A stretch of DNA of 64,000 nucleotides from Phycisphaerales bacterium (GTDB taxonomy: Bacteria; Planctomycetota; Phycisphaerae; Phycisphaerales; SM1A02). The position numbers and the translations under genes are program-made. Of the stretch, positions 53,232 to 62,227 are shown piece after piece; the first letter of the stretch is position 1; every line of letters begins with the position of its first letter. The notes beneath the pieces are model-generated. The model searched no databases. It was given only the letters and a program-made list of their open reading frames with translations, and was not told the origin of the DNA. Where the stretch lies: contig JAQWNP010000006.1 of NCBI GenBank assembly GCA_029268515.1, positions 372,001 through 436,000 on the forward strand. The letters are read 5' to 3'.

Positions 53232-56180
53232 ATGGAACTTCCAGTACTGGCAACGAAAGAAAGTCGTGGATCGCGCACTTTAGATCTTCTTAATGACCTC
53301 CGTCCAGAACTCGATGGTGAGCTGCGAACGAGTCGCCATGACCGCAAACTATACGCGACTGATGCCAGTATGTATCAGGTCGAACCACTTGGCGTCGCGG
53401 TCCCCCACCACGATGGCGATGTCATCCGAATATTTGATTTTTGCCGTACCCATGGTATCGCTCTACTGGCAAGAGGCGCTGGTACATCCTTAGCAGGGCA
53501 AACTGTTAATGAAGCGCTGGTTATTGACACCTCTGCCTGGATGACACGGATTATCTCGGTTGATGAGGATGCTCGACAGGCCGTTGTGCAGCCGGGCGTT
53601 GTGCTCGATGATCTCAATAAAGCCGCCAGAGAACATGGCCTTCGATTTGGTCCTGAAGTTTCTACTTCGACTCACGCCACGTTAGGTGGCATGATCGCAA
53701 ATTGCTCAGCAGGACTTCATTCACTGATCTATGGGATGACTGATGAACATGTGCTCAAAATTGATGCCGCGCTTTCCGATGGACGGCGGCTTCAATTTTA
53801 TGAGGGCGCGAGCGAAAATGATGGAGATATTTTTGAGCTCACACGTCGTATCAGTGATGTGGTGATGCCCTTAGCTGATGAGATTGACACTCGCTATCCC
53901 AAGGTTCGCAGAAATACTGGTGGGTACAAACTAGATGTCATTCTTGATCAACTGCGCCGCTCAACACCTGGAACCTACGACAAGGTCAATCTGGCTCGAC
54001 TCTTGACTGGCAGCGAAGGAACACTTGGTTTTACGCTTCAAGCCACTCTTAATCTCGTGCCCGAACCTGCTTTCAAGGGCCTGGCTGTCGTAGGTTTTCG
54101 AACACTTGATGAAGCGATGGATGCGCTTGTTCCACTCCTAGAGACTCATCCATCCGCGATTGAGTTGATCGATGAAAAGGTAACTAATCAGGCAATCGCT
54201 CATCCTCTCTATAGTCAATACACAAAACTACTACCGCAGATTAATGGGTCCCCCGCCCGCACGGCGCTCTACGTTGAGTACTTCGGCCAAACTCAAGAAG
54301 AAATCGACGAAGCCCTCTCTTTGGTATTAAAAAACGGTTCAAGCGGCAACATCGTTACTTACACTGATACGCCATCAACGACCTCACTGTGGACACTTCG
54401 TAAAGTTGGTCTTGGGTTGCTTGGTGCCATTAAAACAAAACGCCAAGCGATTGGCTCACTTGAAGATTGTTGTGTGCGGGTTGAAGATCTGGGCCAGTTT
54501 CGTCGTGACTTCGAAGTGGTCATGAGTAAACACAACACAACCGCCTCATACTATGCTCACGCATCTGTTGGGTTGCTACATATCCGACCAATGCTCGATC
54601 TTGATGACGTTGTCGACCGAGAAGCATGGTCGGCAATGTGTGAAGAAATAGGTGAAATCGTGAAGGGCTATGGCGGCTCTGTTTCTGGTGAACATGGCGA
54701 TGGCCGATCGCGTGCTGAAATGGTGCAAGCGTTCTATGGACCAAAGCTCCATGAAGCATTTGGTTCTATCAAAAACATATTCGATCCTACGTTTCTGATG
54801 AACCCGGGCATGATCACTGGCGATCTAAAAATGGTGGCCGATTTGCGTCGTGAACCAAATGGAACGCCATTGCCCGAGGCAGAAGTTGACACCTATTTTC
54901 ATTACGAAAATGAAAATGGATTTCATCAGGCCGTCATGCAATGCAATGGCAATGGCCTATGCCGTAAAGATCATGGCGGCACCATGTGTCCCTCCTATCG
55001 AGCGACCCGTGACGAACGACATGTCACGCGTGGACGTGGCAATGCATTGCGCCTTGCTATTACTGGTCAGTTTGCGGAAGACGGAATCTCACCAAATTTC
55101 GATGATCCAGAAACACTCGAGACACTTGATTTATGCTTGTCATGTAAAGCGTGCCGGAGAGAGTGCCCCAGTCACGTAGATATTGCCAAACTCAAGGCGG
55201 AATATTATGCCCAGCACTATCGATCAACTGGGCGAATTCCATTCCAAAAGAAGTTCTTTGCTCGTGTTCGAAGAATGAACAAGCTTGGATCACGCTTTCA
55301 TATGCTTGCAAATCTGGTTGCTTCGTTTCCACCAGTCAAGTGGAGTACACAATCGATGCTCCATCTTGACAAGCGGCGCACGATCCCAAAATATTGCAGT
55401 TCACTTCACAAGTGGTTTGACCATCGACCACTTATCAATACAGGCCAACCTGTGGTTGTACTTTATCCCGACTGCTTTACGGTTTACAACGATGCGCACA
55501 TAGGAAAAGCAGCTGTCGAGGTGCTTGAGGCATTTGGTTATCGTGTCGTACTTCCGGAAATCGGCTGTTGTGGTCGGACCTACTTTTCTACCGGAATGCT
55601 CGAAGAAGCGCAACGCGTTGTCACTGACAGCGTCGATAAACTCCGACCAGTACTAGAAGCGCATGATCCTGTCGCCATTGTTGCCTGCGAACCGAGTTGT
55701 GCCTCTTCGCTTTCCCAAGAGTGGCAAGAACTCAAGACGAGCGTGCCATCAGAACTCATGCAGCAGATTGGCTCGATCACACATACCATTGAAGGTTTTC
55801 TTGAAAGCCGTTGGGAGCAACACCCTCAACAAGTCTCTTTCAAAGAGTCTTTGAGCGACCCACTTACGATCCATGCCCACTGTCATCAAAAGGACATTGG
55901 GCCAGCCACAGAATCCCTACTGGGGCGGTGTGGCTACGCAGGAGCCGCTCTTGTTGACTCTGGTTGCTGTGGCATGGCTGGCTCTTTTGGGTACACCAAA
56001 GAACATTTCGAGATTTCAATGGATGTTGCAGAACTCTCATTGGGCCAAGCGATACGTCAACAGCCCAAAGGGCCGCTGGCCGCCGCCGGTACCAGTTGCC
56101 GCCACCAGGTAGAAGATGCCTTTGGTCGTACCGCATTGCACCCTATTGAATTGATTCATCAACAACTCAATCGCGAGTAA
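53232..56180 (+). CDS. FAD-linked / Fe-S D-2-hydroxyacid dehydrogenase (YdiJ-like)
   Basis: 982 residues. The N-terminal half is a PCMH FAD domain (LLARGAGTSLAGQTVNEALVID, STHATLGGMIANCSAG, LLTGSEGTLGF) with a GlcD-like C-terminal cap and metal site (SGEHGDGRSRAEMV). The second half carries two 4Fe-4S sites (CNGNGLCRKDH...MCPSYR and CLSCKACRRECPSHV) and CCG domains (PEIGCCGRTYF, DSGCCGMAGSFGY). This is the fused GlcD-GlcF design; YdiJ of E. coli (1018 residues) oxidises D-2-hydroxyglutarate. The exact hydroxyacid here is unproven. A TATAAT at 53218-53223 lies so near the ATG that a leaderless mRNA is possible. Confidence 0.9.
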   Translation: MELPVLATKESRGSRTLDLLNDLRPELDGELRTSRHDRKLYATDASMYQVEPLGVAVPHHDGDVIRIFDFCRTHGIALLARGAGTSLAGQTVNEALVIDTSAWMTRIISVDEDARQAVVQPGVVLDDLNKAAREHGLRFGPEVSTSTHATLGGMIANCSAGLHSLIYGMTDEHVLKIDAALSDGRRLQFYEGASENDGDIFELTRRISDVVMPLADEIDTRYPKVRRNTGGYKLDVILDQLRRSTPGTYDKVNLARLLTGSEGTLGFTLQATLNLVPEPAFKGLAVVGFRTLDEAMDALVPLLETHPSAIELIDEKVTNQAIAHPLYSQYTKLLPQINGSPARTALYVEYFGQTQEEIDEALSLVLKNGSSGNIVTYTDTPSTTSLWTLRKVGLGLLGAIKTKRQAIGSLEDCCVRVEDLGQFRRDFEVVMSKHNTTASYYAHASVGLLHIRPMLDLDDVVDREAWSAMCEEIGEIVKGYGGSVSGEHGDGRSRAEMVQAFYGPKLHEAFGSIKNIFDPTFLMNPGMITGDLKMVADLRREPNGTPLPEAEVDTYFHYENENGFHQAVMQCNGNGLCRKDHGGTMCPSYRATRDERHVTRGRGNALRLAITGQFAEDGISPNFDDPETLETLDLCLSCKACRRECPSHVDIAKLKAEYYAQHYRSTGRIPFQKKFFARVRRMNKLGSRFHMLANLVASFPPVKWSTQSMLHLDKRRTIPKYCSSLHKWFDHRPLINTGQPVVVLYPDCFTVYNDAHIGKAAVEVLEAFGYRVVLPEIGCCGRTYFSTGMLEEAQRVVTDSVDKLRPVLEAHDPVAIVACEPSCASSLSQEWQELKTSVPSELMQQIGSITHTIEGFLESRWEQHPQQVSFKESLSDPLTIHAHCHQKDIGPATESLLGRCGYAGAALVDSGCCGMAGSFGYTKEHFEISMDVAELSLGQAIRQQPKGPLAAAGTSCRHQVEDAFGRTALHPIELIHQQLNRE

Positions 56181-56182
56181 AA

Positions 56183-56205
56183 AAGCCCGCAAGGAGCGGG
56201 CTTTG
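56183..56205. terminator. Strong hairpin terminator
   Basis: A perfect 9-base stem (56183-56191 with 56197-56205, AAAGCCCGC) with loop AAGGA stands right after the dehydrogenase stop at 56180. The stem starts with an A run and ends with a T run, so it can work for both the plus-strand dehydrogenase and the minus-strand secreted protein gene that ends at 56232. Confidence 0.9.
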
Positions 56206-56231
56206 GAGAAGGTCTTGGTTTCTTATTCAAT

Positions 56232-57002
56232 TTAGTCGCGGCAGCGGCGGCGGCGACCAAAAATGGCGCCTCCAAGTAACATGGTGGTTAGTACGCCTGG
56301 CGTTGGCGTTACACCTGCACCATCAATACTAATGCCAAATGGATTTGGATCACCAAACAAGCCACTTGTACGAGGTGGTTGTGTGAAATCCCATCCTATG
56401 GTGAAAGTTTCGGATGGTGATCCTGGTGTTGGACTACTAGGTGGCCAGTTACTTGGTAAGAACTGAATCACGGTTGAATTGGCGAAGGCAGAATCAATCC
56501 ACCCGGAGAATGGGGAGAAGTTGGCACCTTGTTGGTTGTAGGTTCCAGAGTCATTCGTATTACCAAACCAATAGCCAGGTATATCACTCGGATCCGGTCC
56601 AAGTGGACCAGGAGCTGATGGAAAGGCTCCAGGAGCAGAATTCATCTCATCGATGAATTGTGTTTGGGTGTAGCTACCGCCGAAGGCAATGTCCAAGGCG
56701 ATAAAAAGCCCAGAGCCGGGAATGTAGGTGTTGAAATCTTCAAGGTAAAAGGACGCATAGCCTTTCAGTGGCACTGAACCAGAAACCGATGCGAACTCAT
56801 AGCAGCCCACACAAGTTTGATGAAACAGCGTCGCCAAACCCACATCGACTCCGGGGCCAAATGCATTAGTGAAGCCGTTACTTTCAAGCCAACTCACATC
56901 CCGATCCAACTCGATATAGCTGTTTGATGATGCAGAAACGCGATTTTGAATGGTTAGGGCGCAAGCTATAGCCCCTAACACAACCATACTCTTCGAAAAC
57001 AT
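56232..57002 (-). CDS. Secreted protein with PEP-CTERM-like sorting tail
   Basis: 256 residues. A signal peptide (1-25, VSA cleavage) begins the protein. The middle is low-complexity Ser/Gly/Pro/Phe beta-type sequence with one CVGC pair. The C-terminus PTPGVLTTMLLGG then AIFGRRRRCRD is a Planctomycetota-type PEP-CTERM signal: Pro-rich motif, membrane segment and Arg cluster, so it should be processed by an exosortase-like enzyme and held at the surface. A shorter relative of its C-terminal part survives as a remnant at 58270-58434. Function unknown. No SD consensus is optimal (AGAGG very close to the ATG). Confidence 0.75.
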   Translation of the reverse strand: MFSKSMVVLGAIACALTIQNRVSASSNSYIELDRDVSWLESNGFTNAFGPGVDVGLATLFHQTCVGCYEFASVSGSVPLKGYASFYLEDFNTYIPGSGLFIALDIAFGGSYTQTQFIDEMNSAPGAFPSAPGPLGPDPSDIPGYWFGNTNDSGTYNQQGANFSPFSGWIDSAFANSTVIQFLPSNWPPSSPTPGSPSETFTIGWDFTQPPRTSGLFGDPNPFGISIDGAGVTPTPGVLTTMLLGGAIFGRRRRCRD

Positions 57003-57265
57003 ATCCTCTTAATCCCTCTTCTCGTTCTTCCCAGGCATCTCTCAAGAACCAGCACGGACGGCCTCGGCTCTCTCGACTCTCTCGACTCTCTCTAGAGTGC
57101 CTAGGTTATCAGAAACTGGGGCCGCTCTGAACTGTTAAATCCCAAAATTGAGCCCTTTGAAACCCCTGGGGATAGCATGTAGACAGGGCAAAAACGTTCA
57201 CTTTTGTCGCCAAAATGCCATTCTTAAGGGCCACAAGTTAGTTCGTTCCTACTTGGAGTTGTAGT
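57003..57265. other. Upstream region of the PEP-CTERM-like gene
   Basis: Contains a 9-base tandem repeat at 57069-57095 (TCTCTCGAC twice, then an imperfect TCTCTCTAG). At 57150-57190 a run including AGCCCTTTG and GGATAGCAT resembles the sequence before the symporter gene at 58450-58470, so it looks like the leader of the decayed symporter copy that follows. Confidence 0.5.
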
Positions 57266-57325
57266 GTCTGGGACCTTCTGATCATCGTGGTGTTTGTCAT
57301 TTACTCGATCAGCGCGGGCTTTTTA
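57266..57325 (+). pseudogene. Remnant of a sodium:solute symporter N-terminus
   Basis: 20 codons read WDLLIIVVFVIYSISAGF after a GTC, against the intact symporter's start MWDLLIIAAFVIYSITIGF at 58507. The GGAG ribosome site also matches, with the same 7-base spacing, but the TTG start codon is GTC here. Most differences are in third codon positions, so the copy diverged while still under selection and then decayed. After residue 19 similarity ends; the frame stops at 57419-57421. It is not expected to be translated. Confidence 0.8.
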
Positions 57326-57410
57326 GAAGTACTTTATTTTTCGAAAACCTGGTTTCTCCACCTCTTGGGTGATCATGCAAGCGAACTCTGTGTAGCCAGT
57401 GTTTGCTATT

Positions 57411-58223
57411 TCACTTACTAGGATTGCTTTCCTTCTTCGGCTCCCAGGTCGAGAGGTTGAAGATTCGAGGGGGGATGGGGCTGTTGACCTCAGCCGTCAC
57501 CAGGTTCATCACGGACAGGCAATGGCTTCCCGGGTCATGCGTACTCCAGCCGCCTTTGGCACGAGGTGCGATGACCCACTCTGCAACCCGCCCCGGAACC
57601 TTGTGACCTTCAAACTCCTTGTAGTCACCATAGATCGTCGCATGCATCATCCCATGGTCGAGATGCACCACCATTGCTGCGAGCGTTGTATCCTCGTAGA
57701 ACTGCATCAAGATATTCCCATGGGGGAACCCATGCAGGATGAGATCGGTTGTCTTCTCGTGCATGATATGGCCGTGGCCAACCGTGATCTTCGTCGTCTT
57801 CTCGAACAGCATCCGCATCATCTCATGTGGATGCGCAAGGGCCATCTGTTTGATCCGCTCCTTCAGGGTCATGGTGACCGGCTTCCCATTGACGGCCTTG
57901 AATGTCGTGCTGTCGATGTCACCGAGAACCGTGACCATGCCGGTCGATTCAACGGTGACCTTCGTGACGATGCTTCCATCACCCAACCAGGTCTCTCCCG
58001 TCATCTCGTGATCAAGTGCGGTGCCCTTCATTTGAAGATGAACCGTCTTTGGCGCCTTGTCGATCTGGGCCCAGAGCTTCTTGATCATTTCCTTCGCTTC
58101 GGGGCTGTCCGCTTTTTCGAGCCCAGGTGGGTTTGGAACAACACCGGCCGATTGAGCTGCCGCACCGATAGATGTAAGCACCAGTGTGACGATCAAGATC
58201 TTTGTGAATAGCCGAATGACCAT
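57411..58223 (-). CDS. Secreted His/Met-rich protein with foreign-looking codon use
   Basis: 270 residues from the ATG at 58223, with AAAGG 6 bases upstream. The N-terminal signal peptide (hydrophobic 8-22) exports it. The C-terminal two thirds recall a DUF1579-like beta sandwich. It is rich in His and Met: HPHEMMRML, VGHGHIMHE, HGFPHGN, LDHGMMHATI, suggesting metal contact, which is inference. Lys is nearly always AAG and Ile nearly always ATC, unlike neighbouring genes that use AAA and ATT freely, so it was probably acquired from a higher-GC source. It sits exactly between the two decayed remnants. An equally long frame on the other strand has no signal peptide and is a shadow. Confidence 0.7.
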   Translation of the reverse strand: MVIRLFTKILIVTLVLTSIGAAAQSAGVVPNPPGLEKADSPEAKEMIKKLWAQIDKAPKTVHLQMKGTALDHEMTGETWLGDGSIVTKVTVESTGMVTVLGDIDSTTFKAVNGKPVTMTLKERIKQMALAHPHEMMRMLFEKTTKITVGHGHIMHEKTTDLILHGFPHGNILMQFYEDTTLAAMVVHLDHGMMHATIYGDYKEFEGHKVPGRVAEWVIAPRAKGGWSTHDPGSHCLSVMNLVTAEVNSPIPPRIFNLSTWEPKKESNPSK

Positions 58224-58269
58224 GGCAGCCCTTTCTAAGGCCAGGCTTTACAGAAAAATAGCCTAGGGC

Positions 58270-58434
58270 CTAGTTTCTTCTACGACAGCGACCGCCAAAC
58301 AAGGCGCCCCCAAATAACATCGTGGTCAGTACACCTGGCGTTGGCGTAACGCCGTCACCATCGATACGAATGGCGAAGGGATTGTCTTCACCACTTCGCA
58401 AACCACTTGTTCTGGGAGGATAGTCTAAAAAGCC
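58270..58434 (-). pseudogene. Remnant of a second PEP-CTERM-like gene (3' part)
   Basis: 55 codons to TAG at 58270-58272 read YPPRTSGL, NPFAIRIDGDGVTPTPGV and LTTMLFGGALFG with a CRRR end. They match the C-terminus of the intact gene at 56232 (PPRTSGLFGD, SIDGAGVTPTPGVLTTMLLG). The frame opens after a TAG at about 58480 and has no start codon or signal peptide, so the N-terminal three quarters are lost. Third-position differences show long divergence. Confidence 0.82.
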
Positions 58435-58506
58435 CTTTTTAACCAGGAAAAGCCCTTTGGAGATAGCATATGGACACCCAAAGGGTCCCTAACCTGGAGA
58501 AACCAT

Positions 58507-60495
58507 TTGTGGGATTTATTGATCATTGCAGCCTTCGTGATCTACTCAATCACGATCGGCTTTATTGCCCGCCGAAAGGCCTCTCGAGGGCTTTCTGAGT
58601 TCTTCCTGGCTGGCCGCAGCCTTCGAGGCTGGCAAGCAGGCACCAGTATGGCTGCCACCCAATTTGCTGCTGATACGCCCCTGGCTGTGATGGGTCTGAT
58701 TGCGACCGGGGGCATCTTTATGGTCTGGCGCTTTTGGATCTACGCCATCGCTTTTCTGCTGATGGCTTTCCTCTTAGCGGGGCAGTGGCAGCGCGCCCGT
58801 GTGATTACAGATGCAGAACTTGTTGAAGTGCGTTATAGCGGCCGGGGCATGGTTCTCTTGCGTGTGGTCAAGGCACTTTACTACGGCACCCTCTTTAATT
58901 GTGTCGTGCTGGCGATGGTGTTGACCGCAACCCTCACCATCTCAGAAGTCTTCTTGACTTGGCATCAGTGGCTTCCAGATTGGTTCTACCAATCACTTTC
59001 AACAAGTCTCTCCAATGGCCTTGGTCTGCAATTCCAGTCACCTTCATCTGAACTACCCCTCGAAATTGCAACGACGAACAATGTGCTAAGCCTCATTGCA
59101 ATCTTGTTATTCGTAAGTCTGTACTCACTCACTGGTGGCTTGCGTAGTGTGGTAGCCACAGATATCGCACAATTTGTTCTGGCAATCGTCGGCACTATTG
59201 CGCTGGCTTGGGTTCTTGTTGGTGAAGCGGGTGGACTCACAACTTTGACAGATAAAGTCACTGAAATGTATCCGTCATTACCCGAGGGTGTGACCGCAGA
59301 TAGTTATAGCGATGCTTCCCAACTTCTCTCATTTTCGCCTGGCTTTGGCGCTGCAGTCATGCCATTCCTGATACTGCTGGGGTTACAGTGGTTTTTCCAG
59401 ATCAATGCTGATGGCACCGGTTATCTTGCCCAACGATCAATGGCGTGCAGAGATGAAAAACAAGCCACGATTGCTGGTGTTGTTTTCACATGGCTACAGA
59501 TTTTTGTTCGTAGTCTTCCATGGCTCTTGATTGGCGTTGCCTTACTCGTACTTTATCCATTTGCCCCTGCAGATACTCAAGTTGACGGCTTTACTGGAAG
59601 TCGTGAACGGCTTTTTGTAGTCGCCATTCATGATTACATGCCGCCTGGTCTGCTTGGCATTCTCTTGGTGGCATTGCTTGCGGCGTTAGCCTCCACCCTT
59701 GATACCCATATGAACTGGGGTGCAAGCTATTGGAGCAATGACATCTACAAACGCGCGGTCTGCCAAGCATGGCTCAAGCGTGATCCTGGTAACAAAGAGT
59801 TGGTGCTTGTGGCTCGGCTATCAAATATCTTGGTGATTGCGCTGGCCCTGATCGTACTACCCTTTGTTGGTTCGATTCAGGAGGCTTGGTATCTAACACT
59901 TTTGTTTGGTGCCGGCGTGGGCAGTGTTCTGGTCTTGCGCTGGGTATGGGATCGAATCAACCTCTGGTCTGAATTTGCCGCCATTATTGCATCAGTGATC
60001 ACCGCTCCCATTCTGCTCATCTTGACCAGTCATGGCACGATTGCCGCTGGCGAACCTGGCGAGTGGATAAGGCTTGGCATTATGGCATTGGTCTCGACGG
60101 CCGCAGCAGTAATCGCTGCGTTCGTGGCTCCGCGCACGGACCGAGAAAAGCTAAACGCCTTTTATAAACAGGTACAACCGGCAGGATTCTGGGGACGTGT
60201 CGCTCAAGACAATGGTGAAGATAAGCGAAGACCGCTACGCCGCCTTGGTGTCGAACTCGGGGCCACTGCTGTTGCTTCAGCAAGTGTGTTCTTTTGTCTC
60301 TACGGAGCAGCCAGACTCTTAATCCCAGCACCTGATGGAACACCATGGTGGCCTCTGATTAGTTTGGTGATTGGTCTGGCGTTGATTCCAATATGGTGGC
60401 GGCAAGTTCTGGTTCGTGGCCATTCAACGCCAGTGGATCGGGGCGTTCAAGATCCAGGTCCCGGCGATGGACTGGGAGCTGGCCCATCCTGTTGA
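58507..60495 (+). CDS. Sodium:solute symporter family transporter
   Basis: 662 residues from a TTG with GGAG 7 bases upstream; the remnant copy at 57266 shares this start region, which supports it. SSS features: first helix DLLIIAAFVIYSITIGF, then AGRSLRGWQAGTSMAATQFAADTPL with the Na+-site region, and YSLTGGLRSVVATDIAQF in helix five. About 14 membrane segments follow. It takes up an unknown solute (sugar, acid or nucleoside) with Na+. The C-terminal 50 residues are Gly/Pro-rich and overlap the 3' end of the convergent CotH gene by 49 bases. Confidence 0.9.
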   Translation: MWDLLIIAAFVIYSITIGFIARRKASRGLSEFFLAGRSLRGWQAGTSMAATQFAADTPLAVMGLIATGGIFMVWRFWIYAIAFLLMAFLLAGQWQRARVITDAELVEVRYSGRGMVLLRVVKALYYGTLFNCVVLAMVLTATLTISEVFLTWHQWLPDWFYQSLSTSLSNGLGLQFQSPSSELPLEIATTNNVLSLIAILLFVSLYSLTGGLRSVVATDIAQFVLAIVGTIALAWVLVGEAGGLTTLTDKVTEMYPSLPEGVTADSYSDASQLLSFSPGFGAAVMPFLILLGLQWFFQINADGTGYLAQRSMACRDEKQATIAGVVFTWLQIFVRSLPWLLIGVALLVLYPFAPADTQVDGFTGSRERLFVVAIHDYMPPGLLGILLVALLAALASTLDTHMNWGASYWSNDIYKRAVCQAWLKRDPGNKELVLVARLSNILVIALALIVLPFVGSIQEAWYLTLLFGAGVGSVLVLRWVWDRINLWSEFAAIIASVITAPILLILTSHGTIAAGEPGEWIRLGIMALVSTAAAVIAAFVAPRTDREKLNAFYKQVQPAGFWGRVAQDNGEDKRRPLRRLGVELGATAVASASVFFCLYGAARLLIPAPDGTPWWPLISLVIGLALIPIWWRQVLVRGHSTPVDRGVQDPGPGDGLGAGPSC

Positions 60496-62111
60496 GGTGG
60501 TGGGCCACCAGGTCGAGGATCGCCACGGCGGTTATCAGAGCGGCCCCGACCACCGCGATCTCGCTTGGGGCCCCGACGACGCTGAACAATAATCTCACCT
60601 GACTCTGTGCCAGCTAATTGCGCCCGCACTGAATCAATGCGTTGCATGATAAATGGGATGAGCGTTGGAACACCTCCTGGCCCACGACCGGCCCGCTGCC
60701 CTTCACCGATTTCTGCCATGTCACCATTAATACTGAGGCGCATCTCCTGAATTTTCTTTGGATCTTGTGTCTCTTCGACGAGTGGAGCAATCACTTTTAA
60801 GTACTTCTCGATCAGCGCTTCCAGCCGCACCTTGGTAAAGGCGCCAGCCATGAGTGATGCCAGTTTATCGCGGTATCTCTGTTTAAATTCTGGATGCTGA
60901 AAAAGGCGTGTTAGCAAAGGTCGTTCGATGACCCAGGGGCGAGCAATTGACCAGTTGGCAAGGACTCTTACAGGGGAACCAAAACTGAAACCGCCGAATG
61001 CTTCATTGATATCCCACGGCAAAAGGCGAGCCCGCCCATCTTGGGGATCAATAAAGACATAATAGTTGTGGATCATGCCTATGTAACTATCAAGATTGAC
61101 GAGTAATGATGTTGCGGCAAGGTAACCCGCGAGCATATCGAGATCTAACAATGATCCAATCTTGGCGTGAAACACATCGTCTGGCGCCTCATTAATCAAA
61201 CGCAATAGCTCCGCAAAGCGTAAGACCATCTCCTTGTTTTCACCACCTAATTTAATGTCATAGGCTTCATACGCACTTGGATCTTGTCCCATGTAACGCC
61301 ACTCTGAAACTTCTGGTTTTAACAAAAGCCCGTCCGCTGCTTTATCGCCAAAAGTGCGACGTATATAAGCCTTATCGACCTGTTCAACGATGACATACGG
61401 TCCTACATCATGCGTCTGCTGGGTATCTTCAAAATGTAATTTGATTGTGCTCCAACCAACGCCCGGGCTGGGAACACCTGCTGCGCGGTAGATCCCATAT
61501 CCAAGCTTTTCACGTAGATACGCTGGATCCTTAAATGAAATAGATAGGTTGAGCTTAGTACGCCCGTGAAAGTTCTGATCTTCAACGAACCTGTCGGTGT
61601 CGATCTTGAGCGGGCGTTTCATACTGCGCATTGACGATTGATAGGAAGAGTTTCCTTTGAACCGTAGGCCTACGTTATCTAAGACCTCACCATTGATAAC
61701 CACTTTGGCTAGCACGTATTCGTATTCGCTCTCATCCGGCATTGGGGCAGGCATTGCTGGTGGAGCCGGCACCATGCCCTGCCCTGGTTGATGGCTGGGG
61801 GGCGCATCCTGTTGGTTTTCAAATGGCGGTACCACTCCATTGGGCCGTCGTGGCTCTTGATCTGGCCGGCCCTTGGGACCACCGCGACCACGACGCCTGG
61901 GCCTGTCTGGTTCCATCGTGTTCCATTTATCTTGAGTCAGATAAATATCGATACGGAGCACGGTTTCACCCCGGAAGACTGAAGTCCAATACGCAGCCTC
62001 GTCCCCCCCTACTGGCGCTGGTGGATCTGCATCCTGCGCGAAAAGTGCAGAACCCAAAAAGCCCGTCACGGCAAGACTCATAACAATAAACCAACGAAGG
62101 ATGTCTGACAT
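60447..62111 (-). CDS. CotH kinase family secreted protein
   Basis: 554 residues; AGAGG lies 5 bases before the ATG. A signal peptide (about 1-25, LFAQ) exports it. After a Pro/Arg/Gly-rich insert (70-125) comes the CotH kinase domain: VGLRFKGNSSYQ, KRPLKIDTDRF, NLSISFKDPAYLREKLGY, GPYVIVEQVDKAYIRRTFG, LLVNLDSYIGMIHNYYVF and LLPWDINEAFG with the metal-binding Asp. CotH phosphorylates spore-coat proteins in Bacillus; planctomycetes have many secreted relatives of unknown target. The last 50 residues are low-complexity Arg/Gly/Pro. Confidence 0.88.
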   Translation of the reverse strand: MSDILRWFIVMSLAVTGFLGSALFAQDADPPAPVGGDEAAYWTSVFRGETVLRIDIYLTQDKWNTMEPDRPRRRGRGGPKGRPDQEPRRPNGVVPPFENQQDAPPSHQPGQGMVPAPPAMPAPMPDESEYEYVLAKVVINGEVLDNVGLRFKGNSSYQSSMRSMKRPLKIDTDRFVEDQNFHGRTKLNLSISFKDPAYLREKLGYGIYRAAGVPSPGVGWSTIKLHFEDTQQTHDVGPYVIVEQVDKAYIRRTFGDKAADGLLLKPEVSEWRYMGQDPSAYEAYDIKLGGENKEMVLRFAELLRLINEAPDDVFHAKIGSLLDLDMLAGYLAATSLLVNLDSYIGMIHNYYVFIDPQDGRARLLPWDINEAFGGFSFGSPVRVLANWSIARPWVIERPLLTRLFQHPEFKQRYRDKLASLMAGAFTKVRLEALIEKYLKVIAPLVEETQDPKKIQEMRLSINGDMAEIGEGQRAGRGPGGVPTLIPFIMQRIDSVRAQLAGTESGEIIVQRRRGPKRDRGGRGRSDNRRGDPRPGGPPPQQDGPAPSPSPGPGS

Positions 62112-62227
62112 AGATGCCTCTAAATCAAGTAAAACTTAGTGAGAATCATCGCCTCTCTTAATAGTGCCTGTTCAATACAAATCAGAACACCTTCATAACA
62201 AGAAGGTTCTAGAACTTTCTCGACGAC

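Follow-up and report, generated by a model that had tools for sequence, protein, structure and literature searches.

A probable two-species mosaic, formed by additive recombination, at a symporter locus of a Phycisphaerales bacterium

How do two intact neighbouring genes come to lie beside fragments of each other, with a gene of foreign composition between the fragments? The question is raised by positions 56232–60495 of the 64-kb stretch of DNA analyzed here (the window, to which all coordinates refer unless stated). Gene A (56232–57002, minus strand) encodes an intact secreted protein with a PEP-CTERM-like tail. It is followed by b (57266–57321, plus strand), a fragment of about 18 codons from the 5′ end of a B-type symporter gene, by gene C (57411–58223, minus strand), and by a (58270–58434, minus strand), a fragment of A. 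The intact gene B (58507–60495, plus strand) encodes a sodium:solute symporter (Pfam SSF, PF00474, E = 1.1e-33; 117 bits against a cut-off of 22.8). This order, A-b-C-a-B, and the open frames of A, C, and B are as laid out in a preliminary description, which also placed the B fragment at 57266–57325. That description took the fragments for old, selected paralogues of one genome, left by tandem duplication of an A-B pair whose junction was eroded or replaced by C. We compared the locus with the only congener sampled, G001 (GenBank CALCOW01, an uncultured Phycisphaerae metagenome-assembled genome of 540 contigs), so that the genus is represented by two genomes, both of which carry C.

To the left, the locus is flanked by native gene D (53232–56180, plus strand), an FAD-linked oxidase with Fe-S domains (Pfam FAD_binding_4, FAD-oxidase_C, and CCG), and by its terminator hairpin (56181–56208, plus strand; 9-bp stem, −16.1 kcal/mol, z −4.2). 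To the right, B and a convergent CotH-like gene overlap at their 3′ ends by 49 bp (60447–60495). PEP-CTERM proteins are defined by a Pro-Glu-Pro motif, a transmembrane helix, and a basic end (PMC1569441). Gene A lacks the PEP motif and has no Pfam PEP-CTERM match; its tail takes the form TPTPG-hydrophobic-RRRRCRD. Fragment a reaches only E = 0.08 against Pfam PEP-CTERM, and the genome encodes two exosortases. Upstream of A, a 9-bp unit, CTCGACTCT, is tandemly repeated in 3.3 copies (57063–57092).

Fragment b resembles the symporter gene of the other species far more closely than its own neighbour: of 54 bases compared, 1 separates it from G001 B and 18 from the adjacent B. Together with the sequence upstream (57213–57321), it matches the 5′ end of G001 B at 96.3% over 109 bp (BLASTN, E = 4e-47). 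Homology to a B gene spans 57269–57321, and ahead of it come some 50 bp from the region upstream of B (57213–57266); the donor-type upstream region proper (57213–57265, plus strand) is 94.2% identical to that of G001 B. When the region was compared with itself by BLASTN, b gave no match to its own B, the DNA likeness being too weak; the aligned peptides agree at 14 of 18 residues (WDLLIIVVFVIYSISAGF versus WDLLIIAAFVIYSITIGF). The similarity of the fragments to the intact genes is significant for a, which matches A at 73% (BLASTP, E = 1e-19), whereas for b and its own B it is visible only in the aligned peptide. The third-position bias that had been reported is also present, with differences at the three codon positions of 3, 4, and 11 for b against its own B and 8, 1, and 16 for a against A. 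The copies left by an old duplication should be closer to each other than to relatives, or as old as the split from them, and b does not fit this. Where its start codon should be, b has GTC and is therefore dead; its sequence identifies it as a piece of the B gene of a sister species, a donor scar. Because b would be donor derived, its third-position differences from the native B reflect ordinary divergence between two species and not selection on b.

A baseline of divergence was obtained from 0.85 Mb of the window's genome and 0.40 Mb of G001. Mean identity over 105 kb of aligned DNA is 74.4%. The native parts of the locus conform to it: the stretch from B to CotH (58508–62142) is 74.5% identical in DNA (B and CotH, 74–77%), and D, at about 75% in DNA, 83% in amino acids, and 0.39 at fourfold sites, stands at background divergence. 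In contrast, C with its flanks (57311–58372) is 94.6% identical to G001 and is the sole alignment of at least 300 bp above 88% in the 105 kb. Identity at fourfold sites is 0.946 for C, 0.385 for B, and 38–43% across B, D, and CotH. The 69 orthologue pairs, a set that lacks C because its antisense frame was preferred and with which its separately computed value is compared, have a median of 0.36 and a maximum of 0.76. Both non-coding flanks appear to have been imported along with C; the 3′ flank (57322–57410) is 93.6% identical to G001 when measured over 57317–57410, and the 5′ flank (58224–58269) is 93.5% identical. Since these flanks (93–94%) are as conserved as C, protein constraint cannot explain the identity. 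As C, flanks, and b are alike about 95% identical to G001, arrival in one tract is the simplest account.

The order of genes in G001 supplies the counterpart. Its contig C109 carries, in sequence, a terminator-like hairpin, C, a decayed copy of A with internal stops (a′), B upstream sequence, intact B, CotH, and a thioredoxin-like gene. G001 D lies at the end of contig C122, which stops directly past the D stop codon, and D and C are probably adjacent in G001 across this contig gap. The preliminary description had held that C as an ordinary syntenic gene without fragments in a relative would speak against its reading. G001 goes half of the way: C sits beside a′ and B with no b, but a decayed a′ is present.

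Two other stretches stand above background in this comparison. One, at 62226–64221, runs past the end of the window and holds the thioredoxin-like gene with its flank; its identity to G001 is 86.6% (0.73 at fourfold sites). The change lies at about 62200, only 2 kb from B, and the stretch is possibly a second, older between-species tract. Elsewhere in the genome, a 5.6-kb stretch (L034:7272–12835, compared with L122) that by eye encodes an RND/Cus-type efflux system is 85.7% identical to G001 (fourfold identity, 0.58–0.76), and is a candidate for another exchanged tract.

Gene C is alien in composition in both genomes. In the window its GC3 reaches 0.697, higher than in any of the 536 open reading frames compared (mean 0.460, SD 0.043); in G001 it is 0.672. 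The AAG and ATC bias noted earlier is confirmed, with 19 AAG to 3 AAA and 16 ATC to 1 ATT. No protein of the neighbourhood is more conserved than C (97.0% in nucleotides and 96% in amino acids to G001). Homologues are patchy, occurring in 6 of 181 genomes of the family, from three genera; those in one other genus are 41–44% identical and those in the third about 25%. By eye, the 41–44% homologues adjoin genes for a MOSC-type protein, an ion channel, and malate dehydrogenase, a different neighbourhood. The contig collection (genome_contigs) held homologues at three loci; in 392 genomes of the phylum there were none besides the window's own genome, and none were found among plasmids and phages. 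Because C is alien in both genomes, patchy, and differently placed elsewhere, these distributions suggest that it was gained once, by the genus or by the donor lineage, and then handed between species. C has no match reaching cut-off in Pfam or NCBIfam and only chance-level matches among PDB sequences, and structure prediction with four sequences gave a mean pLDDT of 43 and no usable model. A hydrophobic, signal-peptide-like stretch seen by eye at its start makes an exported envelope protein the most likely reading. An antisense open frame of the same length (270 codons; 57399–58211, plus strand) probably arises from the codon bias and can mislead gene-calling programs; protein homologues were found for the minus frame only.

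Fragment a corresponds to the last 49 residues of A (209–256), and in DNA the two are about 78% identical (BLASTN of the region against itself, E = 7e-21). Their affinities to G001 are reciprocal. Counted from the A 3′ end, the first 25 columns have 11 informative sites at which a carries the G001 base and none at which A does; from column 30 onward, the count is 12 for A and 0 for a. Both switches fall within the same homologous 6 bp (56256–56262 in A, where affinity counts pass from native to donor type, and 58294–58300 in a; nominal p = 7e-7), in a stretch of the A 3′ end that is 76–82% identical. Thus about 25 bp at the 3′ end of A is native and the adjoining part is of donor type, while a is of donor type to about 58294 and native thereafter. 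Just such a reciprocal switch would result if a circular or repeated donor unit recombined with the A of the recipient through one crossover, the two intervals being images of one event; a chance coincidence of two separate crossovers is possible, as crossovers need a conserved stretch. Judged by these affinities, the intact A appears to be mostly the donor version, the intact B native, and C gained. The stretch 56339–57212 is assigned to the donor from its neighbours, G001 having no counterpart to it. Since the A gene of G001 is a pseudogene, the donor would be an unsampled relative and not G001 itself.

The joint between b and C lies at 57314–57321. It coincides with 8 bp, GCGGGCTT, common to the 5′ end of G001 B and the G001 sequence left of C. 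At the joint, G001 B reads GATCAGC-GCGGGCTT-GATGG (with a one-base overlap in this way of writing; GATCAGCGCGGGCTTGATGG), the G001 sequence left of C reads GCATAGAGCGGGCTTTTTAGAAG, and the window reads GATCAGCGCGGGCTTTTTAGAAG. The motif occurs four times in the 64-kb window, and chance would give a joint with at least 8 bp of identity in about 1 of 10,000 cases (about 1e-4). One of the occurrences (56196–56203) is inside the D terminator. The G001 contig begins, next to C, with a weaker terminator-like hairpin (−7.1 kcal/mol, z −1.7), so it is taken for the D terminator mainly because the two hairpins are alike and because D stops at the edge of a contig. No Rfam family matched in 56000–58700.

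Taken together, the locus is probably a two-species mosaic produced by additive (insertional) recombination, in which a donor unit C-A1-B1(5′ end) entered the recipient's A. Before the event, the recipient would have had the order D-A2-B2, presumably lacking C. The donor, a relative of G001, would have had D-terminator-C-A1-B1, with the alien C already downstream of A1. Joining at the 8 bp that occur both in the terminator and in B1 near its 5′ end (about codons 17–19) would give a circle or tandem repeat of C-A1-B1(5′ end) of about 2.04 kb, a unit length taken from the 2038 bp between the two A 3′ ends. Had this unit entered through a single crossover in the A 3′ end, or through two at one point, the outcome would be D-[A2/A1 hybrid]-upstream B1-b1-C-[a1/a2 hybrid]-B2. 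Afterwards, the 5′ part of the native A2 would have been deleted, leaving a as the remnant; b1 would never have been more than a scar. Transfer would have run from donor to recipient, because b1 belongs to a B gene that is intact and native in G001. Across the G001 gap between C122 and C109, this scheme predicts the D stop, the hairpin, TTTAGAAG, and C. Several points weigh against it: the single congener is fragmented, D and C are on different contigs there, its A is a pseudogene, and A and its native counterpart differ by about 18–24%, at which plain homologous recombination is inefficient, and the crossover may itself have been aided by microhomology. This account keeps part of the preliminary description, in that the locus is the fossil of a duplication-like event and C is foreign and came with that event. 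It does not keep an old tandem within one genome, given the affinity of b to G001 B, nor erosion of a junction later filled by C, given that C and b share the same identity of about 95% to G001. The gain is datable in relative terms, at about 5% fourfold divergence, with no clock.

The sequence would be fitted almost as well by a tandem in the donor lineage. There, an array D-A1-b1-C-a1-B1 would have supplied the tract A1-b1-C by two-crossover recombination, and the G001 lineage would later have lost A1-b1 between the GCGGGCTT copies. Deletion from the terminator copy (56196) to the joint copy (57314) gives exactly the G001 order, and a free circle becomes unnecessary. We think this history unlikely, as it adds one event, does not account for how the b1|C joint arose, and requires two crossovers to hit the same 6 bp; the T-run past the G001 hairpin also resembles an original terminator and not a deletion product. 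It is less plausible still that C and neighbouring A form a recurrent small circular cassette moving between Phycisphaerae species, closed by terminator-derived microhomology and integrated homeologously with no mobile-element gene.

An old duplication in this lineage, in which selection kept both copies and foreign C took the place of the junction, would account for the likeness of the fragments to A and B, the third-position differences, and the composition of C. We give it very little credence, since b is much nearer the B of another species than its own, b has lost its start codon, and C, flanks, and b are all about 95% identical to G001. An assembly chimera of two co-occurring species in one metagenome bin seems just as improbable. 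The assembly comprises 20 contigs, its contamination is estimated at 4.18%, and other congeners may co-occur, but the joints lie on 8 bp and about 6 bp of identity, below usual assembly overlaps, C differs from G001 by about 5%, the start codon of b is lost, and the contig spans 651 kb. Vertical inheritance under unusually strong constraint on C, with no transfer, can appeal to the 96% amino acid identity, the highest in the neighbourhood. It is scarcely credible at all: fourfold sites and non-coding flanks are equally conserved with no RNA family matched, and constraint on C leaves the likeness of b to G001 B unexplained.

The preferred reading, additive recombination, has known relatives. 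Insertion with long target duplication is reported from strains of Helicobacter pylori, where it concerns restriction-modification genes (Nobusato et al., 2000, Gene 259:99, as cited in PMC1643837 and PMC4978471). As in the cases outlined there, a gene lies between direct repeats of adjoining chromosomal sequence, as a single crossover leaves; here the A 3′ end occurs at 56232 and again at 58270, 78% identical. In contrast to those cases as outlined, C is no restriction-modification gene (none was found in the insert, C having no Pfam or NCBIfam match at cut-off), and the repeat copies come from two species, that is, they are xenologous. Homology-facilitated illegitimate recombination joins divergent DNA through one homologous side and 3–10 bp of microhomology (de Vries and Wackernagel, 2002, as cited in PMC6382021). 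The 8 bp at the b|C joint provide such a short end. That process would normally replace or insert a linear piece, and a simple linear version fails to give the b|C joint unless the recipient had C. A linear one-sided insertion into a recipient already with C was set aside, C itself showing the same recent identity to G001. Campbell-type single-crossover integration predicts reciprocal hybrids of the crossed gene on both sides of an insert. Such hybrids are present here at A and a, but the insert carries no recognized vector or mobile-element genes, an 8-bp microhomology would have closed the unit, and the homology is only about 76–82%. In xenologous gene displacement in situ, a foreign version takes over from the native copy. 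Gene A would likewise be largely foreign, with the native copy decaying in place, although here the displacement would have passed through a tandem state created by addition, of which traces can still be seen; the term itself occurs in PMC1274311. Of these processes, insertion with long target duplication and integration by a single crossover or with facilitating homology come closest. The event is of a known type; what is unusual is how legible its detail is.

A patch made up of the larger part of A, the opening codons of B from a sister species, and C, spliced beside the bacterium's own A and B, would be a case of ordinary between-species transfer that can still be read. A gene order that resembles an ancient, selected duplication may be a recent splice between species, and one related genome suffices to distinguish them. 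Third-position differences between neighbouring fragments do not justify calling old, selected paralogy without a relative for comparison. For the Phycisphaerae, a group mostly known from metagenomes, the locus would be a clear trace, left in nature, of additive recombination across a species divide at which DNA identity is only about 74%.
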